Shown: one piece after another, positions 14,516 through 41,546 of the stretch
How the letters are laid out: the number at the start of each line of letters is the position of its first letter
How positions within the stretch are numbered: position 1 is the stretch's first letter
From: Phaseolus vulgaris
Lineage: Eukaryota > Streptophyta > Magnoliopsida > Fabales > Fabaceae
Length of the DNA: 64,000 nt
Assembly: GCF_000499845.2 (NCBI RefSeq)
Contig: NC_023753.2
Coordinates: 24,228,942 to 24,292,941 of the forward strand
Direction of reading: 5' to 3'
Position numbers and translations under genes: made by a program
Notes under the pieces: model-generated
The model's database searches: none
The model's input: only the letters and a program-made list of their open reading frames with translations
Told to the model about the DNA's origin: nothing

Positions 14516-14610
14516 GGAAAATGATTATTTGACACCTCCAAATCGTTTGCTCCAATTTACACCTGTGTGACGTGGAGGAATGGATGATGTGGCATGGGCA
14601 GTTTTGGTAT
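14516..14610 (+). repeat. MULE left terminal inverted repeat
   Basis: Starts GGAAAATGATTATTTGACAC. The reverse complement of the right end starts GGGAACCGATATTTTGACAC. Similarity is strong over the first 21 bases and patchy to about 95 bp (ATGATGTGGCATGGG here, ATTATGTGGGGCCAG there). Confidence 0.85.
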
Positions 14611-14659
14611 TTTTGTTAAAAGCAACGTGGCTTGTGATCTGAAAAGGGGGAAGAGTGTA

Positions 14660-14940
14660 TTAGGGTTTGAAATTCAAATTTCCAGCAAGCATAGGAACGT
14701 GTAGAGATAGACGAACGGTGACTTCGGTGACTGCGGAGAAGAAGTTGTGTACGGTGACGGCGGAGAGGGCAAAGGTGCTAACTAACGGTGACGGCGGAGT
14801 AGTGCTAACTTAGGGTGGTTTATTGCGAAGTGACGGCGGAGTAGTGCGAAGTGACGGTGGTGTGCGAAACGCTGCGAGGAAGGAGGAGAAGGTGGTTTGC
14901 GAAACGGTACGAGGAAGGAGGAGAAGGTAAGTTTGTTTAT
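14660..14940 (+). repeat. MULE left subterminal repeats, possible 5' leader exon
   Basis: Several imperfect copies of GGTGACGGCGGAG and of GTGCGAAACG-TGCGAGGAAGG lie between 14718 and 14925. The stretch is purine- and G-rich and is followed by AAGGTAAGTTTG, a strong splice-donor match, at about 14924-14935. It could be the non-coding first exon and promoter of the protease gene. That role is inference; the repeats are seen directly. Confidence 0.5.
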
Positions 14941-15218
14941 TTTGGTGTAGTGATTGACCAAATTTGACTGCTATAGTGGATGTATTTGAGATTGTGCATG
15001 CATAGGTAATCCTGGGAACTGAATCTGTATGGGGTGTGTGACTGTGAAGGATTATGGATTGATGTTCTATTTCGTTGGCTGACGTTCGAAATTGATTTTC
15101 TGAGAAGCAACAAATGTATCTTAGAAATTAACGTGGGTTCATTGCCTAAGTCCTGAAGGGCAGTTATAGGTTTTTGGTCTCCTAATCCTTCATATGAAAT
15201 TTCATGAAAATAAACGAA

Positions 15219-15702
15219 GTCAGTATAACACATTTGGTAAGTTGGAAAATCATGTGTTCATAAAAGTACTTGTAATTCCAAAAGCCTCCTTTAAGGTTAT
15301 TCTTTTTTGGACATTTTGTTAACAGCAAATAGGTACCATCATTTGGTGTACATATTATATTTAGTTTTTTACCCTTGAGTATGTATTTGTTGTCTAGAAT
15401 ACTGCAAATATTTTATGTTTCAGCCGACAAGAGGAATTGTCGCACACACCTAGAAACAAAGTCAGTATAACACATTTGGTAAGTTGAAAAATCATGTGTT
15501 CATAAAAGTACTTGTAATTCCAAAAGCCTCCTCTAAGGTTATTCTTTTTTGGACATTTTGTTAACAGCAAATAGGTACCATCATTTGGTGTACATATTAT
15601 ATTTAGTTTTTTACCCTTGAGTATGTATTTGTTGTCTACAATACTACAAATATTTTATGTTTCAGCCGACAAGAGGAATTGTCGCACACACCTAGAAACG
15701 AA
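15219..15702 (+). repeat. Two tandem copies of a 242-bp unit
   Basis: CAGTATAACACATTTGGTAA starts at 15221 and again at 15463, and CAGTAT recurs at 15705, giving a period of 242. The copies differ at only a few bases. Each contains CATTTTGTTAACAGCAAATA and ends with CAGCCGACAAGAGGAATTGT. No coding potential is seen. Confidence 0.9.
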
Positions 15703-15730
15703 GTCAGTATATTAAATTTGTATCTCATTT

Positions 15731-18700
15731 GTACCGTTATAGTGTAAGTGGGGACCCATGAATTACTTTTTGCTTGGTCATTGTCTTATATTTTGTTTTT
15801 GCATTCCTGTAAGTGGAACTGATTGTTGTATGTAGTTTAGACATATTTGGATGGTATCAATGTTAATTAGGTGGGTTTTAGCATGATTTGGTGGTCATTG
15901 GAACCGTTATACTGTAAGTGGGGACCCATGTGTTAATAAGTGGGGACCCATGAATTACTTTCTGCTTGGTCATTGTCTTAAATTTTGTTTTTGCATTCCT
16001 GTAAGTGGAAGTGATTGTTGTATGTAGTTTAGACATAGTTGGATGGTATGAATGTTAATTGGGTGGGTTTTAGCATGATTTGGTGGTCATTGGAACCGTT
16101 ATACTGTAAGTGGGGACCCATGTGTTAATAAGTGGGGACCCATGAATTACTTTCTGCTTGGTCATTGTCTTAAATTTTGTTTTTGCATTCCTGTAAGTGG
16201 AAGTGATTGTTGTATGTAGTTTAGACATATTTGGATGGTATCAATGTTAATTAGGTGGGTTTTAGCATGATTTGGTGGTCATTGGAACCGTTATACTGTA
16301 AGTGGGGACCCATGTGTTAATAAGTGGGGACCCATGAATTACTTTCTGCTTGGTCATTGTCTTAAATTTTGTTTTTGCATTCCTGTAAGTGGAAGTGATT
16401 GTTGTATGTAGTTTAGACATAGTTGGATGGTTTGAATGTTAATTGGGTGGGTTTTAGCATGATTTGGTGGTCATTGGAACCGTTATAGTGTAAGTGGGGA
16501 CCCATGTGTTAATAAGTGGGGACCCATGAATTACTTTCTGCTTGGTCATTGTCTTAAATTTTGTTTTTGCATTCCTGTAAGGGGAACTGATTGTTGTATG
16601 TAGTTTAGACATATTTGGATGGTATCAATGTTAATTAGGTGGGTTTTAGCATGATTTGGTGGTCATTGGAACCGTTATACTGTAAGTGGGGACCCATGTG
16701 TTAATAAGTGGGGACCCATGAATTACTTTCTGCTTGGTCATTGTCTTAAATTTTGTTTTTGCATTCCTGTAAGTGGAAGTGATTGTTGTATGTAGTTTAG
16801 ACATAGTTGGATGGTATGAATGTTAATTGGGTGGGTTTTAGCATGATTTGGTGGTCATTGGAACCGTTATACTGTAAGTGGGGACCCATGTGTTAATAAG
16901 TGGGGACCCATGAATTACTTTCTGCTTGGTCATTGTCTTAAATTTTGTTTTTGCATTCCTGTAAGTGGAAGTGATTGTTGTATGTAGTTTAGACATATTT
17001 GGATGGTATCAATGTTAATTAGGTGGGTTTTAGCATGATTTGGTGGTCATTGGAACTGTTATACTGTAAGTGGGGACCCATGTGTTAATAAGTGGGGACC
17101 CATGAATTACTTTCTGCTTGGTCATTGTCTTAAATTTTGTTTTTGCATTCCTGTAAGTGGAAGTGATTGTTGTATGTAGTTTAGACATAGTTGGATGGTT
17201 TGAATGTTAATTGGGTGGGTTTTAGCATGATTTGGTGGTCATTGGAACCGTTATAGTGTAAGTGGGGACCCATGTGTTAATAAGTGAGGACCCATGAATT
17301 ACTTTCTGCTTGGTCATTGTCTTAAATTTTGTTTTTGCATTCCTGTAAGGGGAACTGATTGTTGTATGTAGTTTAGACATATTTGGATGGTATCAATGTT
17401 AATTAGGTGGGTTTTAGCATGATTTGGTGGTCATTGGAACCGTTATACTGTAAGTGGGGACCCATGTGTTAATAAGTGGGGACCCATGAATTACTTTCTG
17501 CTTGGTCATTGTCTTAAATTTTGTTTTTGCATTCCTGTAAGTGGAAGTGATTGTTGTATGTAGTTTAGACATAGTTGGATGGTATGAATGTTAATTGGGT
17601 GGGTTTTAGCATGATTTGGTGGTCATTGGAACCGTTATACTGTAAGTGGGGACCCATGTGTTAATAAGTGGGGACCCATGAATTACTTTCTGCTTGGTCA
17701 TTGTCTTAAATTTTGTTTTTGCATTCCTGTAAGTGGAAGTGATTGTTGTATGTAGTTTAGACATATTTGGATGGTATCAATGTTAATTAGGTGGGTTTTA
17801 GCATGATTTGGTGGTCATTGGAACCGTTATACTGTAAGTGGGGACCCATGTGTTAATAAGTGGGGACCCATGAATTACTTTCTGCTTGGTCATTGTCTTA
17901 ATTTTTGTTTTTGCATTCCTGTAAGGGGAACTGATTGTTGTATGTAGTTTAGACATATTTGGATGGTATCAATGTTAATTAGGTGGGTTTTAGCATGATT
18001 TGGTGGTCATTGGAACCGTTATACTGTAAGTGGGGACCCATGTGTTAATAAGTGGGGACCCATGAATTACTTTCTGCTTGGTCATTGTCTTAAATTTTGT
18101 TTTTGCATTCCTGTAAGTGGAAGTGATTGTTGTATGTAGTTTAGACATAGTTGGATGGTATGAATGTTAATTGGGTGGGTTTTAGCATGATTTGGTGGTC
18201 ATTGGAACCGTTATACTGTAAGTGGGGACCCATGTGTTAATAAGTGGGGACCCATGAATTACTTTCTGCTTGGTCATTGTCTTAAATTTTGTTTTTGCAT
18301 TCCTGTAAGTGGAAGTGATTGTTGTATGTAGTTTAGACATAGTTGGATGGTTTGAATGTTAATTGGGTGGGTTTTAGCATGATTTGGTGGTCATTGGAAC
18401 CGTTATAGTGTAAGTGGGGACCCATGTGTTAATAAGTGGGGACCCATGAATTACTTTCTGCTTGGTCATTGTCTTAAATTTTGTTTTTGCATTCCTGTAA
18501 GGGGAACTGATTGTTGTATGTAGTTTAGACATATTTGGATGGTATCAATGTTAATTAGGTGGGTTTTAGCATGATTTGGTGGTCATTGGAACCGTTATAC
18601 TGTAAGTGGGGACCCATGTGTTAATAAGTGGGGACCCATGAATTACTTTCTGCTTGGTCATTGTCTTAAATTTTGTTTTTGCATTCCTGTAAGTGGAAGT

Positions 18701-19918
18701 GATTGTTGTATGTAGTTTAGACATAGTTGGATGGTATGAATGTTAATTGGGTGGGTTTTAGCATGATTTGGTGGTCATTGGAACCGTTATACTGTAAGTG
18801 GGGACCCATGTGTTAATAAGTGGGGACCCATGAATTACTTTCTGCTTGGTCATTGTCTTAAATTTTGTTTTTGCATTCCTGTAAGTGGAAGTGATTGTTG
18901 TATGTAGTTTAGACATATTTGGATGGTATCAATGTTAATTAGGTGGGTTTTAGCATGATTTGGTGGTCATTGGAACCGTTATACTGTAAGTGGGGACCCA
19001 TGTGTTAATAAGTGGGGACCCATGAATTACTTTCTGCTTGGTCATTGTCTTAATTTTTGTTTTTGCATTCCTGTAAGTGGAAGTGATTGTTGTATGTAGT
19101 TTAGACATAGTTGGATGGTTTGAATGTTAATTGGGTGGGTTTTAGCATGATTTGGTGGTCATTGGAACCGTTATAGTGTAAGTGGGGACCCATGTGTTAA
19201 TAAGTGGGGACCCATGAATTACTTTCTGCTTGGTCATTGTCTTAAATTTTGTTTTTGCATTCCTGTAAGTGGAAGTGATTGTTGTATGTAGTTTAGACAT
19301 ATTTGGATGGTATCAATGTTAATTAGGTGGGTTTTAGCATGATTTGGTGGTCATTGGAACCGTTATACTGTAAGTGGGGACCCATGTGTTAATAAGTGGG
19401 GACCCATGAATTACTTTCTGCTTGGTCATTGTCTTAAATTTTGTTTTTGCATTCCTGTAAGTGGAAGTGATTGTTGTATGTAGTTTAGACATAGTTGGAT
19501 GGTTTGAATGTTAATTGGGTGGGTTTTAGCATGATTTGGTGGTCATTGGAACCGTTATAGTGTAAGTGGGGACCCATGAATTACTTTCTGCTTGGTCATT
19601 GTCTTAAATTTTGTTTTTGCATTCCTGTATGGGGAACTGATTGTTGTATGTAGTTTAGACATATTTGGATGGTATCAATGTTAATTAGGTGGGTTTTAGC
19701 ATGATTTGGTGGTCATTGGAACCGTTATACTGTAAGTGGGGACCCATGTGTTAATAACTGGGGACCCCTGAAGTACTTTCTGCTTGGTCTTTGTCTTAAA
19801 TTTTGTTTTTGCATTCTTGTAAGTGGAACTGAATGTCATGTGTAAGTGACACATAGTTGGATTGTATTAATGTTAATTGAGTGGGTTTTAACTTGATGTG
19901 GTGGCCATTGGTTTTTTG
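15731..19918 (+). repeat. Tandem array 1: about 22 units of 192 bp
   Basis: The unit start GAACCGTTATA occurs at 15901, 16093, 16285, 16477 and so on to 19549, exactly 192 bp apart. The units at 15731 and 19549 are 170 bp because they lack the same 22-bp TGTGTTAATAAG-GGGACCCA segment. The last unit (from 19719) is diverged. Each unit has two GTGGGGACCCATG boxes. Variant types alternate (TATCAATG/TATGAATG/TTTGAATG; ATAGTTGG/ATATTTGG), making a higher-order pattern. The array ends about 12 bp before the first coding exon of the protease gene. Confidence 0.95.
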
Positions 19919-19930
19919 AAGTTTTAGAGA

Positions 19931-22708
19931 ATGGAAACTTCACGGTCCAAGAATTTTGTCCGTCATGCAAAAGCTGATATGAAGGTACTAATTTTACATT
20001 TTGTTCATAATAGTTGAATATTTTGTGAATTGACATGGTTGAATAAATAAAGTTGTTATTGGTTTATGTTCTGATGTTGCAGGTACGAGTTAGGCACAAT
20101 GTGCTGACTCAATATATTGTTGATGTCAACCGTAAACTTAGTAGGTTTCAACAAGAAAGGATTAAACAAACTCCATTTAAGTGGATGCTTGAAATGGACA
20201 AAGTGTTGGATATATCTAACAGCCTCATGATAGAACTATTAAGTAGATGGGCAGCCGATAAGGAAGCATTTAGGATTAGAAAAAGTATAGTTCCATTTTC
20301 AACTCTTGATGTGTGTTTTGCATTAGGATTGCCGGTTGTGGGGGAAGAGGTGAAAATGGAGAATGATGAGGGAGGTGTTGTGAATACATTGTTTGAAGAA
20401 GGGGAGGAAATGAATTTGTCAACAATTTTGAAAAAGTTGGAGGATAAAAATTTGAACAAAAATGTTGATGATTTTGTTAGGTTATACATATTGCTAGGGT
20501 TATATGTATTTTATGTTCCTAGAACTTCTAGAACCTTTACTTCTTTTGCTTTTAAGTGTTTAGACAATTTAGATGCATTACAATTATATAATTGGGGGGG
20601 GGGGGGGTGCAGTGTATAATGTCTTAGTTACAAGTTTGACGAGGGCATCCCAAGTTTACTACGAAGACAAGAATGTTAGTGAAATATATTTGGCAGGTTG
20701 TGTCGTTGTTTTGCAGGTTAGTTAAAATTTGTAAAATTATGTTGTCTTAAATTATTAGTGATTTTGTTTAATTGTTAATTAGTTACGTATTATATTTTTG
20801 GAAATAGGTGTGGGCGGTCCACCATGTGGGTGTTGGCGACCGTGCCCAGTGTATTGGTTTTCCACGATTTTTGCATTGGCCGAGTGTTAATAATCGTGGA
20901 AGAAGGTTACATGAAGTTTTTTTATCTACTGAGGTATATTTGCGAATTGTTTAGTTTTTTGTGCATGTTATTGGGGAAAATTAAAATTTACTCAAAAGTA
21001 ATTGTTTTTTCAGATTGTATGCGATTGGCCGGTAAGTGCTGAAGAGGAAGGAATCCAAATTTTGAAAGAAGCCTTAGCAGATTCTGATGATGGTGTTGGG
21101 GAAAATAGTGGTGGTAAAAGTGAGTGGGACGACTTAGTTTACCAGCACAAACTTTGTGAGAAGAAAGTTGCAGATAACGAATTAAAAATTGATCATTTGG
21201 ACAAGCAAATTAAAGAGGTCCGACAAATGCTTGTTAAAGAAAAGGAGTGGTCAGTTGGATTTGTGCGTGGAGCCAACCCAACCTCTCATGGAGCAAGCTG
21301 TGCTGGTCCAAGCTCATGCAGTTTGGATATGTCCAAAATTTATAAAACATTTTTTGCATTCAAGTTTGACATGAAACGGTAAGTACATATAATTGTAGGC
21401 ATTACTTCATTTGTTGTTATTGCTTGATTATTGAGTTGGTGTTAAATGTTGATGTAGTGTCATTGTGGATATACAAAACAACATGTTGACGAGGCTGAAT
21501 TTGCAATCATTAAGGCCGCGATCAAGAGTTGACAATATGGTAAAAATGTACATATTGTATTAGTTGTTCTATTTACTTGTAATATTTACTTAGTTATATT
21601 TAATGTGTTTGTAGGTTATGCTATCTGTAACCGGCTTCTTAAATATGAATCAAATTGTTCATTTTGGAGTGGTGAATCGGTTTTCATTCAATCCGTTTTT
21701 TGCGGTTAGTGTCGATTTAAATTCATTTTGATTTCTTATAAGTTTTTGTTATTACTAATAATAGAAATTGTTGTTGCAGACTCGTGTAATTGAGGAGATG
21801 ATCAACAAAAGGGTACAAAATTCATGGTCCAGTTTGGATTACATGTCATTTTATGAGAATGCTTTATTCCCATATCAGGGAATATCTTATTGTGATTATG
21901 TAAGTTAATATTATTCATGTTTTCTGTGAAATTTGTTGGTGTTTGTTAGAATGGTGATGTTGAGTGTGACTTTAAACTTTGCAACGTTTTGTAGGTGTTT
22001 GTCCCAACCGTGTTCCAGGAACACTGGTGGCTGTACGCACTCAATTGTCGAACCAAGCAATTGCATGTATTGGACTCCATTGGTCATGGAATTCAAGATC
22101 GATTCAAGATTGATAAAGCAATGGTAAATACCTGCATGTTGTTGAATACTTATGAATATATTTGGTTTGGATTTCTTCATCATTGTTGTTAAATTGCATG
22201 TGGTAGGTTGATCGTCTACAACACCTTTTTGAAATTCTTGACGAATTTTCTGGAAAGAGTGGTCGTCAAATTTTATTGGTAAAAGAAAATGTTCCCCTAC
22301 AACCGAATTGGTTAGTATTGACAGTAATATTCATATTTATTTTGATTTGATATTTTCTCTAATTTGGTTTGGAGTTAATATTTTGAATTCTTCTTTAGGG
22401 TTAAATTTATTTTGGTTGTATGCAGTTATGACTGTGGTATTTTAGTTGTGAAATATATGAAGTTGTGGGATGGTTCACAACACTTGGAAGGGTATACCTT
22501 TCCAAATTACACCACGGTAAGAGTTATTTTTGATAACTTAACACATTTTATTTATTTATAGTTTGGTGATTGCAAACTGATTCCATGATATATTATTTAG
22601 AAGGAGCTCCTACGCTTTCGTCAAGAGATGCTAACTTCGTGGGTGTTGCATGAGTTTAACGTTCAACGAAAAGCTGTATTGACAGATTTGGAAGTAGATT
22701 GCCCTTGA
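19931..22708 (+). CDS. Ulp1-like (C48) cysteine protease gene of the MULE
   Basis: Eleven exons can be traced: 19931-19984, 20083-20716, 20808-20933, 21014-21378, 21458-21539, 21615-21704, 21780-21899, 21995-22123, 22207-22310, 22426-22516 and 22601-22708, all with GT-AG introns. The start is ATG at 19931 (METSRSKNFVRHAK). Exon 2 is a DUF1985-like domain found with plant transposon-borne Ulp1 proteins. Exon 4 is a charged linker. Exon 8 has EHWWLYALNC (catalytic His) and HVLDSIG (Asp). Exons 9-10 have PLQPN and YDCGILVVKYM (oxyanion Gln and catalytic Cys). Ulp1 enzymes cleave SUMO-type conjugates; the role here is unknown. A run of 14 G at 20594-20607 puts exon 2 out of frame by one base, giving a stop at 20619. 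Without that, the gene reads through. It lies between 192-bp arrays 1 and 2. Confidence 0.8.
20594..20607 (+). other. G14 homopolymer with apparent +1 frameshift
   Basis: The run lies in the codons for NWGG; the minus-strand paralogue has MYNWGGLVYEIL at the same place. Ten or thirteen G would keep frame into AVYNVLV, but fourteen gives a stop three codons later. It could be a sequencing error, a real slippage mutation or a length-variable site. Confidence 0.8.
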
Positions 22709-22910
22709 TTTTTATTGGACACTTTCAATTGTAACAAAAAAAAATGTTACTTATTATGAGTTTATGTGAACAATGTAGATACTTTTATTTAATGAATGGA
22801 AGCATTCTCAATTTCATTTAAGTTATTTAATTTAAGAATTTTTTTATATCATATTTTGGGCAGAAAGTTGTCACTGGAGCACATGAATGTGAAGGTCTTT
22901 GTTAATAAAT

Positions 22911-23765
22911 TAATTGGAACCCTTATAGTGTAAGAGGGACCCTTGTGTTAATAAGTGGGGTCCCAAGAAAAACTTTGTGCATGGTCATTGTTTTCAAATA
23001 TTTTTTTGGATTCCTTTAAATGGAATTGAATGTTGTGTGTAAGTGAGACATACTTGCAGTGTATGGATGTTAATTGGGTGGGTTTTACCATGATGTGGTG
23101 GTCATACAAACCCTTATACTGTAAGTGGGGACCCATGTGTTAATAAGTGGGGACCCATGAATTACTTTCTGCATCGTCATTATTTTGAAATAATTTTTTG
23201 GATTCCTGTAAATGGAATTGAATCTTGTGCGCAAGTGAGACATACTTCCAGTGTATGGATGTTAATTTGGTGGGTTTTACCCTGATGTGGTGGTCATAGA
23301 AACCCTTGTACTGTAAGTGGGGACCCATGTGTTAATAAGTGGGGACCCAAGCATAACTTTGTGCATGGTCATTGTTTTCATAAATTTTTTTGGATTCCTG
23401 TAAATGGAATTGAATGTTGTGTGCAAGTGAGACATACTTGCAGTGTACGGATGTTAATTGGGTGGGTTTTACCCTGATGTGGTGGTCATTGGAACCCTTG
23501 TACTGTAAGTGGGGACCCATGTGTTAATAAGTGGGGACCCAACAATAACTTTGTGCATGGTCATTGATTTCAAAATAAATTTTGGATTCCTGTAAATGGA
23601 ATTGAATGTTGTGTGCAAGTGAGACATACTTCTAGTGTATGGATGTTAATTGGGTGGGTTTTACCCTGATGTGGTGGTCATAGAAACCCTTGTACTGTAA
23701 GTGGGGACCCATGTGTTAATAAGTGGGGACCCATTAATTACTTTCTGCATGGTTATGGTTTTCAT
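22911..23765 (+). repeat. Tandem array 2: four and a half units of 192 bp
   Basis: CCCTTATA/CCCTTGTA starts at about 22921, 23111, 23303, 23495 and 23687 (spacings 190, 192, 192, 192). It is the same family as array 1 (GTAAGTGGGGACCCATGTGT, GTTAATTGGGTGGGTTTTA, GATGTGGTGGTCAT) but clearly diverged from it. It lies between the 3' end of the protease gene and the 3' side of the transposase gene, which converge here. Because 192 is 64 codons, similar 62-codon frames recur on the minus strand; they are not genes. Confidence 0.95.
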
Positions 23766-24172
23766 GTTGCTTTATCTCACTGCAACTGCATGCATGCAAG
23801 GGAGGGGATTACAATAATTTTATGACCAACCTAATTGTCATTCAATTCAACGAAATTCAATGCAACAAATTTAAAATGATTGTATTTTGAAGACATCATG
23901 GTTATCATTTTGTTCAATACACAAGGTACAACCAAATGGTGCAAGAATGATTTTTATATAACCATCTGTTGAAACAAAGAAGACATGAAATTGATTTGTA
24001 ACTTAACATTGCAGTACAACAAGTATTATCAATATATATAGGAATTTATCCCATGTACGATGTTCAAATAGTGAGGAGTTGTGATGCACCAAAAATGATA
24101 AAGGTTCTCTTCTATGTCATATAAAACACTTCCTTGTGTGTAAAAAGTTTTGTGGATCCTTCATTACAACCT
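23766..24172. other. Spacer between array 2 and the transposase 3' end
   Basis: A+T-rich with no reading frame or repeat recognised. It probably holds the 3' UTR and polyadenylation sites of the transposase gene. Confidence 0.3.
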
Positions 24173-26868
24173 GCAACCAAATAATGAATTTAACTTACAT
24201 GAACAAATTGATATGTATAACATTTGTTGGGTTTAAGGTCACAAACCTAAACAACTCTGAAGCATTTGATTCTTGAGATATTGGTAAATTACTTTGGACT
24301 GAGTTCAACAATGAAAGAAAGCCAACAGACCTCGTACTTGACACCTACACTTTATTTCGTAGTAATTAAACAAAATAGGAAGTTCCAAACGTGAAAAATA
24401 GTGAAGAAGTACAACAAAAAATACAATAGACACGTACCCTTGCAATTGCATTAGTCATCCCATTGAATGTATTCATGTTTCCTTCAGTTTGATCAGGCAG
24501 ATTTGCTTGAACACCTCCCACATAACTTCCTTCCTCAATTCCCTAAGGCATTTAGTTTTGAATTAGATATAATATTTACATTTGACATATCAAAGTAAAC
24601 AAAAAAATGAAAAGAAATTGTTATACTAACCGTAGTTGGCTGACTAGGAAGTTGACGTCTAGTACATGTATTTTTTCTTCTCGGAGCCTTTTCACACCTG
24701 GATTTTTGTCGTGTTGATCGCGGCCGACCCTTTCTTTTCACAAGTATAGGGCTACGGATATCACCGTTCATGTTGATTGTTGTGGTAGGAGTACTTGGTG
24801 TTGGTTGTTCAGGAGCTCCACAAATGTTATGCTTTGTCCTATGTTGATCATGTCTTTGTTGACCATATTCCAACACAAATTTGTCAAGTTGTTTATGCAA
24901 GATTTCTGTTGTATTAATTTCCCCGCTGGCATGTTCAGCTATGTCATAAAACTTCTTGCACAATCCATCATACCTTTGAACTTGTGGATCCTTGTCTTTT
25001 GTGGCAAAGGATGATCTTATGTACGTGTGCTTTCGCCTTAGATTTTTACTCCACCTTTCCAATACATACTTTTTTGGGACTTTTGTCACTTTTTCTTGAG
25101 CAAGGACAACAAGGCAGTGCCGGCACAAAATTCCCCTAAATTCAAATAACAAGCAAGTGCAACATACATCTAGTTGTTCACGGTCAAAAAGAACTACTAC
25201 ATTGCGGTGTTCAGGTTTACCATTTTGGAAAGACTCCTCTACAACAGTGAAACGACATGCATGACCCTCAATATAGGCATTAGTAACAGCACAATTCATT
25301 TTTCCTCTAAACTCCCCTTGCACCTCATTCAATTTTGCATGTGTGTATTCCGATTGGAATTGTCTTTCAATGCCTGATTGAGATGTGCAGGGAATTATGG
25401 TGTTAAGAGAAGCAAAATCCGCTTCACACTCTAATTCGGCCTTATGTTGCAGAGCGTTCTCATACTGTTGCACAAATTGTTGGAGACTTGTGCTTGAATT
25501 AATGTACCCGTCAAAAAAAGCATTCATGCTTTCACTCCTTTGCGTTGTTGACATTCCGGCCCAAAAAAATGATTTTAGATAACAAGGAACCCAACGATGT
25601 CGTTCTTCAAATAATGTACTAAGCCAATCGTTTGTACTTAAGTTAAACGTATTTATCAAATTTGCCCACGAAGACAAGAAATCATCAACACTTGTGGACT
25701 CATACACTACTGTCTTCATTCCACGTTTCATTTCCTTGTACTGACTATATCCTTGAAGTTTTTCTAGTATTTTTTTCATAATGTGCCAAAGACACCACCT
25801 ATGACGTGCATTTGGGAACACAACTTCAACTGCAATTTTCATTGCCCTGCATTGATCGGTCACAATGCCTACGGGGGGTCTGTTTGACATGCAACGCAAC
25901 CAACTTTGAAAAAGCCACACAAAAGCATCAGTGTCCTCAGAAGATAGGAGTCCACATCCCAACAATATTGATTGACCGTGATGATTTACACCAACAAAAG
26001 GTGCAAACGGCATATCATACTTATTTGTTAGGTATGTGGTATCGAAACATAAAATGTCTCCAAAACTATCCCATGCTGCCCTACTTCTAGCATCAGCCCA
26101 AAATACATGTCGTATGCGGTTATCATCGCCCAAATGAATGTCAAAATAAAATTGTGGATTCAATTCCCTCATGCGACAGAAATGATTTAAGAGAGCTTTT
26201 CCATCACCTTCCTTCCCCAATGCTCTCCTACTTTGGGCAACATAATTACGCACATCTCGTTCAACAAAGTTGAGATTCTCGTAACCACCAGCAGCAGACA
26301 CAAAAGACCTAAAAGTCTTATTTATACGAACCTCAGCATTGTCATTAATATCCAACACTCTTTTTGTTTGCAAAGATATTTTCCTATTACCGTGAAACAA
26401 TCTAGAATTCGTCGGGCTCAATTGATGTGAGTGTTCCTCGTGTACCGACATAATATACCAATTGCCTTCTTTTATTCCAACAGTTATATGAGTCGGACAT
26501 TCAACCGTCTAAGTAGGGTGAGTGCTTAATTCTGGTGGAATCGCAGACATGTAATTTCCCGCCCTAGCACATACCAAGATAAAGTACCTTAATTCCTTGT
26601 CAGGTCCTTTTTTTGAACTTCGAGTTCTAATTGCAAAACCCTTTTTAATGCCATATTGTCGGTAATAACTTTTCACGGCATCTGCAGTGTCAAAACACAT
26701 TCCAACTGTAGGAGCTGATTCATCAACTACATTTGGAACAGACTCATCAATATTGATCTGGGAATCTGTATCAGGAAGTATATTTTCCACATAATCATTC
26801 CTAGCTAAATGATTCGAATGCTGAGATTCTTCTAAGAACGGAATGTCATCAAGTGACAAATCTGCCAT
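24173..26868 (-). CDS. FAR1/mudrA-type MULE transposase with one in-frame stop
   Basis: The start is ATG at 26868 (MADLSLDDIPFLEE). A FAR1-type DNA-binding domain follows (FDTADAVKSYYRQYGIKKGF, CARAG, then VECPTHITVG and HEEHSHQLSP). The MULE catalytic domain has DILCFDTTYLTNKYDMPFAP, LGCGLLSSEDTDAFVWLFQ and GIVTDQCRAMKIAV, then NARHRWCLWHIMKK. The SWIM finger CCTCLLFEFRGILCRHC comes near residue 570-590, then a basic tail (GRPRSTRQKSRCEKAPRRK). The main reading frame runs 26868 to about 24620. GT-AG exons at 24542-24438 and about 24340-24247 extend the C-terminus. A TAG at 26511-26509 interrupts the frame between the two halves of the DNA-binding domain; no frameshift accompanies it. The product would bind the TIRs and cut and join the element. 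The neighbouring HROB-like gene is divergent from it, 1.1 kb away. Confidence 0.85.
26509..26511 (-). other. Premature TAG in the transposase
   Basis: The codon between STHPT and TVECPTH is TAG. The same frame is open for about 120 codons before and about 630 after. A single substitution is the simplest explanation. Confidence 0.85.
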
Positions 26869-29071: not shown

Positions 29072-29164
29072 GGAATTAGACAATCTTGAATATTATGTAG
29101 TGCGAACTTGTATGTGACGTCAAATAATGTTAAATGACGATTATTAACATCTCAGTTTTTTTGC

Positions 29165-30567: not shown

Positions 30568-30572
30568 CACGG
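30568..30572. repeat. Gypsy target-site duplication, left
   Basis: CACGG, matching 38347-38351. Confidence 0.9.
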
Positions 30573-31559: not shown

Positions 31560-32911
31560 TGTGGTATCATGAGTCTTAGGTTCATTCTTGTTAATTGTTG
31601 AGTTGTGTGCACTTTAATTTCAAGAGCTCTTTAATTTCTTGCAATTTTAGTTGCTGTTTTAGAATTTTAATTGAGTATTCTTGCTGTTTTTCTTTTGCTC
31701 CAAGTGTTTGTGGAAAGGTTTATGGCACTCATAATTCTTATAAGTATGGTTGCTCTTTTGGAATGGCATTATCCTTCCTAGAGTTTACCTTAAGCTTCCT
31801 TTCATTTGTTACAATTTGTGTTGTGTCTTTTAATTTTTGAATCATGTCAAGTTGTGTCTTAGTCATGTTATTCCATATATGTCATTACTTCTAGTAGTAC
31901 TTTTATTGTTTTGATTGTTTCTTGCTTTGGTGTCATATAATTTTCTGAATTGATGTTGATCCTTTGTGCATTTTCTTTTTAGAATTGAGTTCATACTTGT
32001 ATTCTAGACCTATACAAGTTCCACTACATCATTTTCTATTATGTCTTTGCTAGTTCATCATTCTGTTTTTTATTCCTATTAGGATTCCTCTGTTTCTGAA
32101 AAGAGTGCTTACTGTTTTTCCTTATTTCAACTGATTTACGTACTGTAAAATTCTGAAATTCTGGATTTGAGATATTCAAAGTGTTAGAAAAGAATAGAAA
32201 AAAGAATCATTCAAAAATATGAAGTACACAAAAAATGATAAATAAAATAAAAAAAGTGTACATTCCTGCCGAAAAAAATACGGTAATCTGGCAGTGATTT
32301 TAAAAAATTTATTTCTCTCAATTGGCTTACTGTTTTTAATTGATTCCAGTGCCATTTTTGAGTTAACATCTTGAAGTTTCTGTGGTATAAATTTCATAAT
32401 CCAGTTCGCTCTACAACGTTCCAGTTAAATCAGTGAATATCAAACACAGTTTGCATAAAAAAAAAATTTCCAGTAGCTAAATTTTTTTGTTTTCTTCATC
32501 TACTCTAGTGCTTTTCCTTAGGTATTCTTTTGTGTGCCTACTTTTCTCATTGAGTTCTTTATTTTCTTGATTGTCTTTCATTCTTACTCTTTGAGTTTGT
32601 CTCACATATAGTTTTCCTTTTGCAATTACCTTTCTTTGCTTATACCTTTTCTTGTTTGTCTTTATTGTTTCATTGGTTTTGTGGTGGTTGCTTTTGAGAT
32701 TGGTGTGCTTGCTTTGACATATTTCATTTGAGGATTCCAAGGCCTCAAGATCAGATTGGAGCAAGAACATTATTTCTTTGAGAGTGATATCTTTTTCAGC
32801 CTTAAATTCACTTCGGCAGTTTCAATTGCAAAGCTCACTGTTTTTGCTAATTTTTTAACTTGTTTGCTGTTTTGTGTGTTTGCTGTTTTTTTTTTTTTTT
32901 TTTAATTACAA
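31560..32911 (+). other. Gypsy leader between PBS and gag
   Basis: 1.35 kb with no long reading frame. It starts with a PBS-like TGGTATCATGAGTC and ends with a long T tract (about 32888-32903) just before the gag start. Packaging and regulatory functions would be expected here; no specific motif was recognised. Confidence 0.6.
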
Positions 32912-35900
32912 ATGGCTGGATCTTCAAGTGATGCATCCTACAAGCAGAATTCTCCTTCCAAAGCTTCCATTCTTGGTGAATTACATGAAGCTCAAAGAAC
33001 AATTAGAAGGTTGGAGGAAAAAATGCAAAAGATGGAGGTCCAACAATCTAGACCATCTCCTTCTATCCATGATGGACATCATTCTCATAGACCATCTTCA
33101 AGAGCTTCTTCAAATGATGTTGGCCGTGAAGATGAGCATAGGAGAAGGAGACCTCCACCCCAAGTCCATGGACAAAGACATCATCACCAAGGGGAAAGAA
33201 TTCACTACGGCAATGGCTTCTACCATGATGCAAAGTCCAAGCTTCCTTCGGTCAAACTACCTTGTTTTAATGGTTCTAGTGATCCAAATGTGTATTTAGA
33301 TTGGGAGGCTAAGTGTGAACAAATTTTTGAGATCCATGAGATCCAAGATGAGCATAAGCTCAAGCTAGCCACCCTAGAGTTTAGTGATTATGCCATGAAA
33401 TGGTGGCATGGGATTGTAAAGGACATTATCTATCACAAGGGTCCTCCCGTGGACTCTTGGAACTCTTTAAAGGATCATATGCGCGCTAGGTTTGTACCCC
33501 CACATTTTAGGAAAGACCTCATGTTGAGACTCCAACGGTTTCAACAAGGCACGCTAAATGTGGATGAATATTATAAGGAGCTTGAGACGCTTGTGCTTAA
33601 AATTGAATTAGAAGAAAGTGAAGAAGCCATGGTTGCTAGGTTTGTGAGTGGTCTTAGGAAGGATATCCAAGACATTGTTGAGTTACAAGAGTATTCATCA
33701 TTGGGCTCTTTAGTTCATCTTGCAATGAAGGTGGAAGCCCAACTTGCTAAGAAAAACTCTTTTAAAAATGCTTCCAATAATGGATACTACTCCAAGTCTT
33801 GGAGAAACAAAACTTCTTTTTCTAAACATCCTTCCAAAGATTCTTCTTTCAAACCCAAGGAATCTAAGCCATCAACATCTAGACCTAAGTCTCCCACTAG
33901 AACATCTAACACTAAATGCTTTAAATGTATGGGTTATGGTCATATTGCTGCAAATTGTCCTTCCAAACGAAGTATGTACATGCATGAGGGCATTGTAGTT
34001 AGTGAGCATGATTCGGATTCTTCAAAGCATTCATTGCATTCTCATGCATCTAGTGAGGAAGAGAGCGAATGTCCACTTGAAGGGGACTTGTTAGTTGTGA
34101 GAAGACTTCTTGGACAAGTTTCACAACCTTTTGATGAAAGTCAAAGGGAAAATATTTTCCATACAAGATGTCTTATTCAAAACAACATTTGTTCCTTGAT
34201 AGTGGATGGGGGTAGTTGTGCAAATGTGGCTAGTACAAGAGTAGTAGATAAACTTGGATTGCCTACTATCTCTCATACAAAGCCCTACAAGTTACAATGG
34301 CTTAGTGAAGTAGGAGAAATAATTGTTAATAAACAAGTCCTCATCCATTTCTCCATTGGAAAATACAAAGATGAGGTATTATGTGATGTTGTGCCCATGG
34401 AAGCCACTCATGTTCTTTTGGGAAGGCCTTGGCAATTTGATAGAAAAGTTTTACATGATGGCTTTACCAACAAATTATCTTTTGAATTCCATGGTCACAA
34501 GGTTACTTTAAAATCTCTCTCTCCAAGAGAAGTCCATGAGGACCAAGTTATCATGAAGGAAAAGAGGGAGAGTGAAAAAGATAAAAAAGATAAAAAAGAT
34601 AAGAGTTCTAAGCCTACACTCCTTGTGTCTAGGCGTGACATTGAAAGGGAAATAGTGGCTCATCATCCTCTTTTTTTAGCCATCCCTAGAACTCTTAGCA
34701 TAGAATCACTTGTTGATAGTCCTCATTGCTTGGAAAATTTGGTAGAAGAGTTCAAAGATGTGTTTCAAAATCCTCCAAATGGACTTCCACCTTTGAGAGG
34801 GATTGAACACCAAATTGATTTGATACCGGGCTCTTCTTTACCAAATCGTCCCGCATATAGGACCAATCCAAGTGAAACCAAGGAAATTCGCCAACAAGTT
34901 GAGGCTTTGATTGAGAAAGGGTGGGTGCAAGATAGCATGAGTCCTTGTGCTATGCCTATCATCTTAGTGCCAAAAAAGGATGGCACATGGCGAATGTGTT
35001 CGGATTGTAGGGCCATAAATAACATAACCATTAAGTATAGGCATCCCATACCTAGACTAGATGATTTGTTGGATGAATTACATGGTTCTAAAATCTTTTC
35101 AAAGATTGATCTTAAAAGCGGCTACAATCAAATCCGTATCAAACCGGGTGATGAATGGAAGACGGCTTTTAAGACCAACTTTGGTTTATATGAGTGGTTA
35201 GTTATGCCTTTTGGTTTAACTAATGCACCAAGTACCTTCATGCGCCTCATGCATCATGTTCTTAGACCTTTCATTGGTAAGTTTGTTGTGGTTTACTTTG
35301 ATGACATTCTCATTTATAGCTTATCTTTGAATGATCATAGGTTGCATGTTAGGCAAGTTTTGGAAACCCTTAGGAAGGAACATTTGTATGCTAACCTTGC
35401 TAAATGTATGTTTGCTCTTGATCATATAGAATTCCTAGGGTTTGTTGTGAGTTGTAAAGGGGTCCATGTGGACAAAACAAAGGTGGTGGCCATTCAAAAT
35501 TGGCCTACACCGAAATCTTTGAATGAGGTCCGAAGTTTTCATGGGCTTGCTTCTTTCTATAGAAGATTTGTCCCAAACTTTGGTACCATTGCCGCACCAC
35601 TCAATGACATAGTGAAAAAGGATGTGGTCTTTCATTGGGGAGAAGCACAACAAAATGCTTTTGATACTTTGAAAGAAAAATTGACTAATGCTCCCATCTT
35701 GGCCCTTCCTAATTTCACTAAGACATTTGAGATTGAGTGTGATGCTTCAAGCATAGGTATTGGGGCTGTTCTCCTTCAAGAGGGCCACCCCATCGCCTAT
35801 TTTAGTGAGAAATTGAAGGGAAGTCATCTCAACTATTCCACCTATGATAAGGAATTATATGCACTTGTTAGGGCTTTGTTTACTTGGCAACACTATCTTT

Positions 35901-37549
35901 TTCCCAAAGAGTTTGTGATACATAGTGATCATGAATCTCTTAAATATTTGAAAAGCCAAAACAAACTTAACAAGAGGCATGCTAAGTGGGTGGAATTCAT
36001 TGAGCAATTTCCTTATGTGATCAAACACAAGCAAGGCAAAATAAATATTGTGGCGGATGCTCTTTCTAGAAGATACACCTTGCTAAATCTTTTAACCTCT
36101 CAATATCTTGGTTTTGATCACATTAAGGAACTTTATCATGATGACCTTGATTTTTCTCTCCTCTATCAAGAGTGTCTTAAGGGAGGACACAAAGATTTTT
36201 TTATTCAAGATGGCTTTCTTTTTAAAGGAAAACGTCTTTGTGTTCCCCAATGCTCTATTAGATTATCTCTTGTTAGAGAAGCTCATGAGGGGGGCTTAAT
36301 GGGTCATTTTGGGGTTGCTAAAACTTTGGATGTGTTGCATGAACATTTCTTTTGGCCTCATATGCATAAGCATGTTCATAGTTTGTGTGATAAATGCATA
36401 GCTTGCCGCAAAGCTAAATCTAAAATGCATCCCCATGGTCTTTATACTCCTCTTCCTATCCCTTCAATGCCTTGGGTAGATATATCTATGGATTTCATCT
36501 TAGGCTTACCCAAGACATCAAAGGGAAAGGACTCCATTTTTGTGGTAGTGGATCGTTTTTCAAAGATGGCTCACTTTATTCCTTGCCACAAAGTGGATGA
36601 TGCATGCCACATTGCAAACCTCTTCTTTCAAGAAGTGGTTCGCTTGCATGGGATTCCTAGGTCTATAGTGTCCGATAGAGATCCTAAGTTCTTGAGTCAC
36701 TTTTGGAAGACCTTGTGGGGTAAGCTTGGAACTAAGCTTTTATTTTCTACCACTTGCCACCCACAAACTGATGGTCAAACCGAGGTGGTGAATAGAACTT
36801 TAGGACAACTATTGAGATGCTTTATTTCGGGGAATCCTAGAGTGTGGGAGAATTTACTACCCCATGTTGAGTTTGCATATAACCGAGTAGTAAATTCTAC
36901 CACCTCCCATTCTCCTTTTGAGGTGGTCTATGGGTTTAATCCCCTAACACCTCTTGATCTTCTTCCTATTCCCCTTCTTGACGATGTCTTGTGCAAAGAT
37001 GGGGATGACAAGGCTTCTTTTGTGAAAACTTTGCATAAAGACATCAAGAAGAGAATTGAGAAGAAGGTTGGCAAGTATGTTGAACTTGCCAATAAAAGGA
37101 GAAAAGCATTGTTGTTTGATGAGGGCGATTGGGTTTGGCTTCACTTGAGGAAGGATCGTTTTCCTACTCAAAGGAAGTCCAAACTAATGCCTCGAGGGGA
37201 TGGACCTTTCCAAGTCCTTAAGAGGATTAATGACAATGCTTATGAGTTAGATATGCCTGATACATTCTTAGGTAGTCATACTTTTAATGTCAGCGATCTA
37301 ACTCCTTTTTCTGTAGGTCTCCAGAATTCGTGGTCGAATTCTCTCCAACTCGGGGAGTATGATGGAGATCAAGCCCAAGAGAACATGGAGGCCACTCATC
37401 AAGCTCAAGAAGAGGTGGAGGCACAAATGGAGGACGCCCATGGAGGTCAAAGTCCACCTCAAAGGATTACAAGAAGCATGTTCAAAGCCTTGGGAGCTAG
37501 AGGACATTTATTTTCTCTTTTTGTAGTGTCTTTAGTTGAAGGTGCTTAG
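32912..37549 (+). CDS. Gypsy gag-pol polyprotein, 1,545 aa, intact
   Basis: Starts [14 protein letters not shown]. The gag domain spans about residues 100-280 ([28 protein letters not shown]). The CCHC knuckle [14 protein letters not shown] is near 337. The protease region has [13 protein letters not shown] near 430 and [13 protein letters not shown] near 500. RT has [19 protein letters not shown] near 690, then [13 protein letters not shown] and [10 protein letters not shown] near 795. RNase H has [20 protein letters not shown], and the HHCC zinc finger of integrase starts near 1130 ([25 protein letters not shown]). The integrase core has [23 protein letters not shown] and [16 protein letters not shown]. 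The C-terminus (FNVSDLTPF, then [10 protein letters not shown]) runs 63 codons into the 3' LTR. No stop or frameshift is seen. The protease-linker style and the LTR overlap suggest the CRM/Reina side of the chromoviruses; that placement is inference. Confidence 0.95.
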
Positions 37550-38346
37550 AGGGAAACCTTAGAAACCTCTTTTGTTATAGCATCTTTTAGGTTTTAGTTA
37601 GGAGCTTTAGGGGGGTGTATTAGTAGATAGGTGTAGGAGTAGAATAGGGGGTGCCAAAGTGAAGGAAAGGATCACACCTTCCTTGCCTTGCTTTTGAGCG
37701 CCGGTTCTAGCTTGTTTTGGAGGGAATTTTGATTTGTTTTAGCTTTCATTTTTCAGCACCTTAGGCTATAAATAGAGGTGCCTTCCTTGTAAATTTCAGA
37801 TTTGAATTTTATCTAAGGAAACTATACTCAAAATTGGAGTGAGCATTTGGAGAGCTTTGAGCTTCTTCTCTAGTCTTATCTTGAAGGACCATGGTTTCCT
37901 CAAGTGGCGGCTTCCACACTCATCTAGGAGCATCCATTCTTCTAGTGGCGTGATCATCCAACCATTCCTCCATCTTCATGAGCATTCTCTTCTCCTTCCT
38001 TTCTTCTTCTTCAATTTGTTCTTGTTGCCTTGAGTTTTGAGTTGTTTTTGTTTCGGTTCCTTTAATTTTCCAGCACCTTTATTCTGTTTAGTTTTTAAAT
38101 TCTGTTCGGTTCTTTTGTTTTTAAGTTCAATTCTGTTCGGTTTATTCTTTTCCTTCTCCTTTGTTGATTCAATTTGACAATATTTGGTTCATCCAAATGA
38201 GTTTGGGATTTGGTACTTGTTTTGGTGAGTTCTTGATCTTAGAACCATGATCCAACTTCTAAGAAAGTGCCTCTACATTTTCCAGCTCAAGGTGATTCCT
38301 CAAAGTGTCAAGAATCTTGTTCTATGTGGCTATTGGAATCACATCA
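37360..38346 (+). repeat. Gypsy 3' LTR
   Basis: 987 bp, same length and apparently same sequence as the 5' LTR. Its first 190 bp are read as the C-terminal 63 codons of gag-pol. Confidence 0.95.
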
Positions 38347-38351
38347 CACGG
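38347..38351. repeat. Gypsy target-site duplication, right
   Basis: CACGG, matching 30568-30572. In the minus-strand gene these bases are coding. Confidence 0.9.
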
Positions 38352-39630
38352 ACTTCATCCTTTGTTGGTTTCTTCTTCGTAATTGGACACCCAATTTGGT
38401 CAAAAGCTTCTTCAACAAATTTACTGCAAACTTCTTCATTGGAAGCACATAATTCAACAACAACCTGTTTGTTGACATATATAATTCCAAAAATAATTAT
38501 CTACATTCAAAACAACATTAAGGTAATACAAATTACAAAAAAAGAAAAAATACCTTATTCTTACGCAGACCACGTTCAAGTTCATGGTCACCAACTCTAA
38601 CATTCATCCAATGCATGATACGGGGATATTTATTCCCACTAGTAGGTACTTGACGCTTATAAGAGAACAAATGTTCCATCGTCCATATCTGAACAATGAA
38701 TACAAAAAAGGCATTTATTAAAAGGTCAACACAGATGCACAATTATTACAAACATTTACCAATAACAAAAATGTTTCATTTTACCTGCAAGAGGTAAACG
38801 CAACCATCCACATGGATATACGACATATTTCCCCGCGTAATCCATTTTGAAGCTGAACACAAACTATCAACCAAAATCTCATACACTAAACCCCCCCAAT
38901 TATACATATCAAGTTTGTCTAAATCATCAACAAGGTTAAATAACCCATCATGAACTAAACCCAATCTAGTAGGGAGAATAAACTCCGACAAACCTAACAA
39001 GACATACAACTTACAAAAGTCCTCTGAGGAAATATCATTCCCAAGTTTCAAAATAACAGAATATATCATTTCCACAGTTACATGACCTTCTTCAAAAAAA
39101 CTCCTTATGTGAGATATAATACTACTTTTCCTTAAATCAATTTTTCTACCACCTACTCTAAGACCTACACCTAAACACACATCTACCAAACTAAACGACA
39201 CAAATTGATACTGAGTTAAAAAACATTGCTTCCTCTCCACCCAAGAACTACATAACTTACTTAAAAGTCCACGGCTCAATTTGATGTCCTCACGAACAAA
39301 CAAAAGCCATCCAAATGGGGTGGACTGTATAATACTCTTTTGTTCCAAAGTTATAACCATGTTCACAACAGCCAAACGCTTTGACCTGCAATTATGCCTA
39401 AACACCTGTATATCAAAATCAAATACAAATACAGTATAATAATTAAAATTAAAGATAAATAAATGTAATTGTCATGTCTACTTAAAAACAAAAAACATCA
39501 TTTCAAACAAACCTTAGCTTGACCCTCAGGATAACGATCAATCGTAAGAACCTCCTCATCTGAACATCCGCTAATTGACATTATATCCTCAAACAATTTT
39601 GTGAATGTTTCCTCTTGAGAACGAAACCAA

Positions 39631-40095
39631 CATACACTCTTATAACATCAGTATGCTTATGCTTCAATAATAGAACATTCAGTTAATTTAGAGCAACATG
39701 AATTGTTGTGCAGTTCTATTAATACCTCAATTCTTAAATATATGTACAGTTCTATTAATAAATAAGTTTTTTCATTTGAAAGGGGCAACATACACTTACA
39801 AATGGGAGCAATCAGATTTTCATTTAACCAAGCCTTTTCCATCACCACCTGGCGCCACATCATTAGCAACTACAAAGGGATTTAGAGAGAACATAAAACA
39901 ATATTGTCCCACAATTTCATCAATAACTAACATAAAAGAATACTGCCCTATAGTTGTTTGTTACATTAGTGTCTCACAACCCATCCATTGCAAATTGAGG
40001 AACCAAATAGCAATTTCAACATAGTTGCAAATTTTAAAACTAAATAACTATTTCAACAAATTTACAATTTAAGAACCAAAGAACAGAATAATTTA
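39631..40095. other. Spacer inside the MULE, no exon seen
   Basis: A+T-rich. AGTTCTATTAATA occurs twice (about 39711 and 39747). It may be the 5' part or promoter of the DUF1985-like gene. Confidence 0.3.
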
Positions 40096-40835
40096 AAACT
40101 AATTTAGAAGGTACATGGTGGAATCTTCACTCTAACAGGAAGGCTTGTAACATCAATGACGTAAGGCTTTTCAAGACACCAATAACTAAATTGGGGAAAC
40201 AAAGGTTTAATGATATTTTCAAAAAAAATTCACAACGAATGTAGAATGCAAATGAGTCCAATGTAGACCAAATTTACTCAGCTAACTAAACTGCCAAGAA
40301 ATTAGATGAAAATAAAATAACATTTTAACCAAAATTGATTCTACTAACCTCATCTTCATCTTTGGTCGGATCCAATATAATACAATAACTATCTGTTACA
40401 GAACGACATATTGGAACCAAACAGACAAGGATGACAATTAATTACTATTAATAGAATTAAAATGTAGAAACAAACCAACAGACAAACTAACTAGTGTACA
40501 TTACCAGGAACATGCTTTGACGAATTCCAGTCTCTATAGGTGCATCACATGCTGCATAAACTGTACATGGAAGAAGATATATGTTAAGTTAAGTTAACAA
40601 AAAGAAGCAAAAATACAGAAGCATATATTTTAAATATTAAGTTAGGATAGGATTACGTTTTGGAAGCAAGCCTGGTTAGCCAACAAGAACTCATTGGCTT
40701 GAGATGCAGCTGCAGCTTCAGACACCAACGCCTTTATGACCAAAGTCTTAACCTCCCGGGATTTGTAAGGAAAACCCTCTCTCTCATACGAGTTAACCAA
40801 CACTGCACTTCCCTCCGTCACCAATTGCTAGGAAA
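40095..40835 (-). pseudogene. Exon-like segments of an unrecognised gene near the MULE right end
   Basis: Four minus-strand segments have protein-like character and splice-like borders. 40835-40665 has a CCTAG acceptor and reads QLVTEGSAVLVNSYEREGF, ALVSEAAAASQANEFLLANQ. About 40552-40507 reads YAACDAPIETGIRQSMFL and is followed by GTAATG. About 40408-40352 reads RSVTDSYCIILDPTKDEDE and is followed by GTTAGT. About 40180-40106 reads WCLEKPYVIDVTSLPVRV and ends in TAA. I do not recognise the family. They could be a host gene fragment captured by the MULE or 5' exons of the neighbouring gene. Exon joining phases were not all consistent. Confidence 0.35.
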
Positions 40836-41039
40836 CCCTAAAAAGTCAAATCCAAACCAATACAAAGGTCATTCAACATATAGAAAATCAAAACACCAAT
40901 AAACCCCAGTGTCCAACAATCCAAAACCCCAACATCCAACAAATAAACGAAATCGAAAAACCCTAAGTCCTAAAAAATCAAAACGAAACCAATGAAAACT
41001 TGACGAAAAATTATATGAAAATAGATGCTAAATCAAAGA

Positions 41040-41385
41040 GCTCACCGGAATCAGAATCGCAGACGTTACCGGAATCAGAATCGCACACGTTACCAGAATC
41101 GGAATCGCAATTTCAGAAATATCCAAACAAAAACGAAATCCAATGTAATGCGGTACCGATATCGCACTACAAATGGTGTTGATCGTAGACTTCACCGGAA
41201 TCGGAATGAGAATCGCTACCACTCCAAATCGCACTCCAAATCGCACTGAGAAAATGGGGCTGAAAACGAATTCCAATGTAATGCGGTACTGATATCGCAC
41301 TACAAATCGTGCTGATCATAGACTTCACCGAAATCGGAATGAGAATCGCTACCACTCCAAATCGCACTGAGAAAATGGGGCTGAT
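41040..41385 (-). repeat. MULE right subterminal repeats
   Basis: A 20-21-bp minisatellite (CGGAATCAGAATCGCA-ACGTTAC, three copies) lies at about 41045-41112. It is followed by two tandem copies, about 120-130 bp each, of a unit running from AATCCAATGTAATGCGGTAC to ATCGCACTGAGAAAATGGGG (about 41138 and 41268). It mirrors the repeats inside the left end in position but not in sequence. Confidence 0.8.
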
Positions 41386-41449
41386 TTTGCCTTTCTAAAA
41401 CCTAATTTTTTACTACAGAACCCTAAATTTTAAAATTTTGCCACCTCAA

Positions 41450-41546
41450 CAATACTGGCCCCACATAATACTTTATTATATTTTAATCCACATCAGCAGG
41501 CGTAATCTGGCGCAACACTTAATTGGGTGTCAAAATATCGGTTCCC
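41450..41546 (-). repeat. MULE right terminal inverted repeat
   Basis: Its reverse complement starts GGGAACCGATATTTTGACAC and aligns with the left end. See 14516-14610. Confidence 0.85.

Follow-up and report, generated by a model that had tools for sequence, protein, structure and literature searches.

The element and its ends

A 64,000-bp stretch of common bean DNA (the window; C7:24228942-24292941, in an assembly of 537.7 Mb and 467 contigs) contains one copy of a family of cut-and-paste transposons, FAR1-type Mutator-like elements (MULEs); it is 19.25 kb long and was later hit by a Ty3 retrotransposon. The element has four genes. These are a transposase, a PMD-like Ulp1 protease, a second PMD protein and a gene resembling HROB, and they are accompanied by three tandem arrays (Table 1). 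Comparison of sequences across the genome makes the HROB-like gene look like a standing gene of the MULE lineage, not a one-off neutral cargo.

The original prediction, made from the letters of the window, was that a 27-kb multi-gene MULE lies here between matching terminal inverted repeats (TIRs) and a perfect 9-bp target duplication, and that everything in between moved as one unit. The ends are where they were placed. Nine bp is the typical length of a MULE target duplication, and on the plus strand of the window TTTTCAGTA occurs only at the two flanking sites, with one more occurrence on the minus strand at 44198. For any one specified pair of sites, such a 9-bp identity has a chance of about 4^-9. 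TIRs are not universal among MULEs. Those found here are identical at 45 of 63 aligned columns, and their alignment score of 21 exceeds the maximum of 17.5 reached in 1000 single-base shuffles of the end. An empty target site was also sought inside the window, where only a repeat that ends short of the junction was found.

The size and the idea of joint movement need revision. The ends enclose 27,031 bp, of which 7,774 bp are a nested long terminal repeat (LTR) retrotransposon. Its LTRs (30573-31559 and 37360-38346) are identical over 987 bp each, and a single open frame (32912-37549) contains gag, reverse transcriptase and integrase domains. All four other copies of the MULE that cover the insertion point (C3a, C6, C1 and C4b, see below) lack the retrotransposon there. 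Because the retrotransposon arrived later, the element proper has a net length of 19,252 bp. A single multi-gene MULE is therefore present, but not everything between its ends moved together, and 27 kb is rejected as the moved unit.

Genes of the element

Domain scores were obtained both from the window's own frames and from exons of the C4b copy, which were spliced by eye and to which the matching window exons are at least 96% identical. The predicted FAR1-type transposase was found in this way. Pfam detects the MULE domain (PF10551, 2.7e-35), SWIM and HROB in window frames, and the open C4b transposase of 777 aa matches MULE (1.9e-34), FAR1 (PF03101, 3.7e-10) and SWIM (PF04434, 9e-06). There is no MuDR-type DNA-binding family among the seven C4b domain matches. 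The class of the transposon, a FAR1-type MULE, is set by this domain content (MULE, FAR1 and SWIM) together with its ends.

An Ulp1-like protease had also been predicted, and the joined C4b exons of the left gene do match Peptidase_C48 (7.9e-10). The Cys block aligns with SENP8, and the catalytic His and Asp were assigned by eye. In C4b the N-terminal exon of this gene scores 34.2 bits for PMD (cut-off 34.9) and 9.3e-05 for DUF1985. The right gene had been described as a protease-domain paralogue. This did not stand, and the gene was rejected as a second protease: it matches PMD (49.1 bits against the same cut-off), its DUF1985 score (0.0013-0.0014) is below the cut-off, and scanning it against Pfam gave no C48. 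Some observations here weigh against the overall explanation given below. The left gene narrowly misses the PMD threshold, neither gene comes near that of DUF1985, and the window copy is damaged in three of the four genes, with a stop in the transposase, a frameshift in the left gene and a right gene split by the retrotransposon.

The fourth gene lies head-to-head with the transposase. The predicted HROB-like OB-fold is recognised by PF15072 even on the window's unspliced frame (38.5 bits), and the joined C4b exons reach 82.2 bits (2.6e-23, cut-off 30.8) over profile positions 4-84 of 85. No stops were seen in the five blocks of the window. A search of solved structures gave no HROB match at E up to 1, and a search of a plasmid collection gave no match.

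Table 1. Features of the bean MULE and of the retrotransposon nested in it (window positions).
Feature	Position	Strand	Basis or remark
Left 9-bp target-site duplication, TTTTCAGTA	14507-14515	.	window sequence
Left TIR	14516-14576	+	alignment to right end; end shared by other copies
Subterminal direct repeat, 242-bp period, ~2 copies	15212-15711	.	repeat analysis
Array A, 192-bp units, ~20 copies	15745-19911	.	TAAGTGGGGACCC doublet 22 bp apart in consensus unit
PMD/DUF1985-like + Ulp1 (C48) gene (left gene)	20074-22519	+	exons matched to C4b; part of exons placed
Left gene, N-terminal exon	20074-20716	+	7 bp longer than C4b, frame shifted
Left gene, C48 exons	22001-22123 (His, Asp), 22421-22519 (Cys)	+	C4b exon match
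Array C, 192-bp units, 4.4 copies	22918-23764	.	~82% identical to array A
Transposase gene (FAR1, MULE, SWIM)	24535-26868	-	domain scores; in-frame stop 26509-26511 in window copy
HROB-like gene, five predicted exon blocks	27965-28943	+	domain match; block order as in candidate host gene
HROB exon blocks	27965-28210, 28280-28420, 28478-28594, 28679-28747, 28851-28943	+	C4b match
Array D, 192-bp units, 4 copies	29165-29924	.	aligns with A and C over ~58-bp doublet region only
CACGG target duplication of retrotransposon	30568-30572, other copy 38347-38351	.	window sequence
Ty3 LTR retrotransposon, later insertion, outside MULE proper	30573-38346	+	LTRs, target duplication, domains
Second PMD gene (right gene), later exon, split by retrotransposon	38347-38464, continuing at 30572-30176	-	exon match
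Second PMD gene, N-terminal exon	38776-39405	-	window frame, domain match
Right TIR	41487-41546	-	right terminus shared with four other copies
Right 9-bp target-site duplication, TTTTCAGTA	41547-41555	.	window sequence

Other copies of the family

The first 21 bases of the element occur exactly at 17 places in the genome, the window included. Among the 34 genome matches of the first 285 bases, 19 distinct left ends reach at least 85% identity, and eleven places lie at 70-80%. A comparison of these coordinates with those of the HROB matches (see below) puts HROB, on the strand expected, no more than 25 kb from at least 12 of the 19; for the other seven there is none within that distance among the matches listed. 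Six other loci were fetched (C3a, C3b, C4a, C4b, C6 and C1). Their segments follow the window's order and share its ends, and HROB is present in four (C3a, C6, C1 and C4b). Of the left half C4a retains just pieces, and has nothing of the rest, and C3b matches the window only as far as the transposase in the 30 kb read. The C3a copy is deleted internally, and its left part is duplicated. At C3:14794208-14834207 the left part of the copy stands twice, 19,494 bp apart and with 7,393 identical bases, which is either a recent tandem duplication or an assembly artefact.

The original prediction had proposed a search for other copies by their ends and the 9-bp rule, and this search bears it out. Right ends were read in C3a, C6, C4b and C1 (C3b and C4a were not traced that far), and all four have the same termini and target duplications of their own. 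Those of C3a, C6 and C1 are TTAAAAATA, TAAAACTAA and TTTTTTTAA, all exact, and that of C4b is an A-run matching at 8/9. Over the five copies read at both ends, window included, the duplication is thus exact in four and 8/9 in the fifth.

A relative at C5:31870000-31873499 has an end 73% like that of the window element and an Ulp1 region 92% alike, from which element parts seem to have been exchanged between families. The inspection of relatives for Ulp1 and arrays covered 3.5 kb at this one locus, a limit that weighs against the overall explanation.

The 192-bp arrays

Three phased satellite arrays had been predicted, and the same 192-bp period is found in all three. In arrays A, C and D alike, TAAGTGGGGACCC-like motifs also form a doublet at 22-bp spacing. 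Seven copies of the element (C3a counted once) contain 191 GTGGGGACC sites, with 0 on the other strand, and their spacing is mostly 22, 170 and 192. In the four stretches where the ends of the element are defined (window, C3a, C6 and C4b), no site lies beyond them. The copy number of the arrays differs between element copies.

In Arabidopsis VANDAL elements, the targets of VANC proteins are described, in passages of two papers, as short motifs that form tandem repeats in noncoding parts (PMC5735166; PMC10398659), and VANC genes carrying Ulp1 are reported in part of a third (PMC13317346). The bean arrays resemble VANC targets. By analogy, the PMD-like proteins of the element may act like VANC anti-silencing factors, with the array doublets as putative binding sites.

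What if the arrays are ordinary satellites or transposase sites, unrelated to anti-silencing? This is a serious alternative, to which we give only slightly less than an even chance. Tandem repeats arise freely, and that PMD proteins bind the doublet is itself a prediction from analogy. The conservation of the doublet is also uneven. It is the least variable segment within A/C units (rank 0 of 151), but in D units it holds no such place (rank 116 of 151), and this tells against a targeting role. However, an ordinary satellite does not readily fit the way in which the otherwise dissimilar array D unit retains both period and doublet. Beyond the first ~58 bp of that unit, 172 of 500 shuffles against A and 26 of 500 against C reach the global score. 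Nor does it readily fit the single orientation and 22-bp spacing in seven copies, or the fact that C5, a relative with a left end only 73% alike, still has the doublet.

HROB beside transposases across the genome

A 201-aa HROB model gave at least 238 genome matches (best 150 of 192 candidates scored), and the 53 first-exon places among the matches listed were used. A 368-aa piece of the transposase gave 119 genome matches (best 111 of 426 candidates scored), of which 67 were used. At 29 of the 53 listed HROB places a transposase of at least 50% identity lies 1.1-3.1 kb upstream on the opposite strand, in other words in the divergent arrangement of the window. This is so even for HROB places of less than 80% identity (18 of 30 listed). 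The transposases that stand head-to-head with HROB have 54-100% identity. Another arrangement within 5 kb was seen at one listed HROB place. No HROB was found within 20 kb of the 18 FAR1-like matches below 50% identity that were tested (a further 22 such rows were left out). Inspection of the sequence at two diverged loci showed a transposase frame (76% over 576 residues and 70% over 409 residues) in the expected place and on the expected strand. The association is not universal, which weighs against a standing gene: 24 of the 53 places have no transposase within 5 kb among the matches listed. Nevertheless, HROB is read as a gene of the lineage because its exons adjoin related transposases in several subfamilies and its stop-free copies appear to be under purifying selection (see below). 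The recombination-factor gene that the original prediction took for part of the cargo of this element is there, but it is not a capture peculiar to the element.

Where did the gene come from? A gene at C2:49464964-49466715 has exon blocks in the same order as those of the element and no transposase nearby among the matches listed; it is taken as the candidate host HROB gene. Most likely HROB was captured from the host gene once or rarely, as genomic DNA with introns, since the exon blocks of the two correspond.

Two further groups of HROB matches stand apart. At C2:12151505-12155857 four first-exon matches follow in a row, about 1.38 kb apart, as a tandem array of HROB copies with no transposase within 5 kb among the matches listed. 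Matches to the OB-fold only, in open frames of 153 aa (C1:47210901, C8:33640809, C11:6094117, C7:23637759, C8:57017213 and C18:307567), look like a separate repeated family retaining this exon.

Signs of selection on HROB

The first exon was compared among 16 stop-free sequences, namely that of the window and 15 that were fetched, the candidate host gene included. The ratio of nonsynonymous to synonymous substitution rates (dN/dS) could be judged in the 65 of 120 pairs with dS between 0.1 and 1.5. Its median is 0.31 (range 0.12-1.04), it is below 1 in 64 of the 65, and it is 0.12-0.13 between the window and the C4 and C6 subfamilies. For the OB-fold exon, the corresponding ratio of proportions (pN/pS) between the window and four diverged copies is 0.26-0.30 at high dS. 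Three of these four copies are near-identical, so this amounts to a comparison with two subfamilies. The ratio is 0.35-0.50 in other diverged pairs and 0.31 with C3:26.0 Mb, a close pair; of three near-identical pairs two give 0.63 and 0.94 and one is without any synonymous change. The transposase serves as a yardstick, with 0.09-0.11 in three pairs. HROB thus looks constrained, less tightly than the transposase (a median of 0.31, and 0.26-0.30, against 0.09-0.11).

Several points weigh against constraint. Single first-exon pairs are high, at 0.54 (window and C8:49.4 Mb), 0.78 (window and C3:30.2 Mb) and 1.04. The 55 other pairs lie outside the dS limits, and pairs are not independent. Low ratios are also favoured because the fetched copies were all chosen as stop-free. 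Finally, changes within the young family fit neutral drift in every gene, with 19 nonsynonymous and 11 synonymous changes in HROB (p=0.31) and 74 and 27 in the transposase (p=1.0). One HROB stop in this family agrees with a stop in the first exon of the C1 copy. However, neutrality is expected of copies after insertion, and the young family is uninformative on the longer history.

Could HROB be passive Pack-MULE cargo, copied by chance and neutral? MULEs often capture gene pieces, as parts of PMC2528002 recount, and the young family looks as such cargo should. Passive cargo is nevertheless unlikely, given that the head-to-head arrangement recurs with transposases as little as 54% identical and that low dN/dS between subfamilies is found in two exons of stop-free copies. 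Alternatively, the host gene might have been captured afresh time and again, so that the constraint reflects selection in the host and not in transposons. A candidate source exists, and some element HROBs (49-52%) are as far from that of the window as the host candidate is (48%). That the most diverged element HROBs are no closer than the host gene speaks against a single capture. We nevertheless give repeated capture little credence, as the same position beside the transposase recurs, and as in the first-exon alignment element copies share stretches missing in the host candidate (a block after PGPAG and the SNPW-W-A block). By these comparisons, related transposons seem to have kept HROB working for a long time, and this suggests that they use it instead of dragging it along.

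A model of the element and its meaning

The two ends belong to one element. That they come from different elements sharing a 9-bp word by chance, which the original prediction had named as its own possible undoing, is to be dismissed: the TIRs are identical at just 45 of 63 columns, but in other copies the same genes stand between the same pair of ends, with different 9-bp duplications, and these copies refute it.

The best explanation as a whole, and one we consider probable, is a four-gene MULE in which HROB is a gene of the lineage, captured once or rarely, with a VANC-like function for the PMD proteins and an MCM8-9 function for HROB. In humans MCM8-9 is stimulated by HROB, which acts through the OB-fold and a region upstream of it, according to passages of PMC11055865 and PMC7290032. 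The element HROB retains, as sequence, the OB-fold and an upstream conserved block. From this we infer recruitment of MCM8-9 by HROB during transposition; for the arrays, the VANC analogy would give a role as anti-silencing targets. The transposase would cut at the element ends and produce the 9-bp duplications, and the HROB protein would bring the host MCM8-9 helicase to repair or copy through the breaks of transposition. A more specific version is tentative, and we hold it to be rather doubtful: host HROB may have been made a standing transposition gene that loads MCM8-9 at the breaks or gaps of transposition and so biases repair towards copying and raises copy number, while PMD-Ulp1 proteins that read the doublet satellites would prevent silencing.

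The repair machinery of the host is believed to close and copy the sites of DNA transposons, and an element with a helicase mediator of its own would give this idea a testable gene. The diverged HROB proteins form a natural set that helps to map the important parts of HROB, and the doublet offers, in a plant other than Arabidopsis, a candidate motif for anti-silencing factors to target. Should other legumes show the same constraint, HROB would stand next to Ulp1 among the host genes that MULEs have adopted for purposes of their own.

Two features adjoin the element. On the left, window positions 11865-12020 and 14325-14497 form an 84% repeat pair, probably LTR-like, which ends 18 bp short of it. 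Just to the right is a large inverted repeat (41745-49589) that contains tandem repeats and may be a further element of foldback or long-TIR type; its arms include 41751-43049 and 49290-48010, which are 84% identical.

Comparison with known systems

The KAONASHI/KIU-carrying VANDAL MULEs of Arabidopsis also make 9-bp duplications. The link to KAONASHI made in the original prediction holds in part, as for the Ulp1 domain in a transposon gene, and fails in other respects. KI-MULEs are characterised in passages of PMC2528002 as non-TIR MULEs with mudrA, although ULP sequences also occur in TIR-MULEs and Jittery-like MULEs. The bean element has recognisable, imperfect TIRs, a FAR1-type transposase in place of mudrA, and HROB. 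What it has in common with the KAONASHI/KIU-carrying VANDAL MULEs of Arabidopsis, so far as parts of three papers describe them, is the Ulp1 domain within one of several genes (PMC13317346; PMC10398659; PMC5735166), as well as degenerate TIRs and noncoding tandem repeats (PMC5735166; PMC10398659).

Jittery-like MULEs with ULP, from grapevine and melon, also resemble it. Their transposase is distant from MuDR and in some families ULP lies downstream, as a section of PMC2528002 sets out. FAR1/FHY3 domains in Jittery-group proteins are stated there for single-copy Jithouse genes. An HROB-like gene, a second PMD gene and doublet arrays go unmentioned in the passages that describe these elements (PMC2528002), and such a gene is likewise unmentioned in passages of a common bean transposon survey with 45 MULEs (PMC4093653). 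In the open-licence literature, nothing beyond the human MCM8IP study was found that links HROB, PF15072 or DUF4539 to transposons, and neither transposon capture of an MCM8-related gene, Pack-MULEs included, nor Phaseolus Mutator-like elements with anti-silencing were found.

The likeness to HROB/MCM8IP (C17orf53) lies in the PF15072 OB-fold and in an N-terminal block with the PGPAG motif; the difference is that the bean protein is encoded by a transposon. This leaves the Pack-MULEs, which also have host gene sequence within MULE ends. However, the host-derived gene of the bean element is multi-exon, stands beside the transposase, recurs beside diverged transposases and shows signs of constraint.

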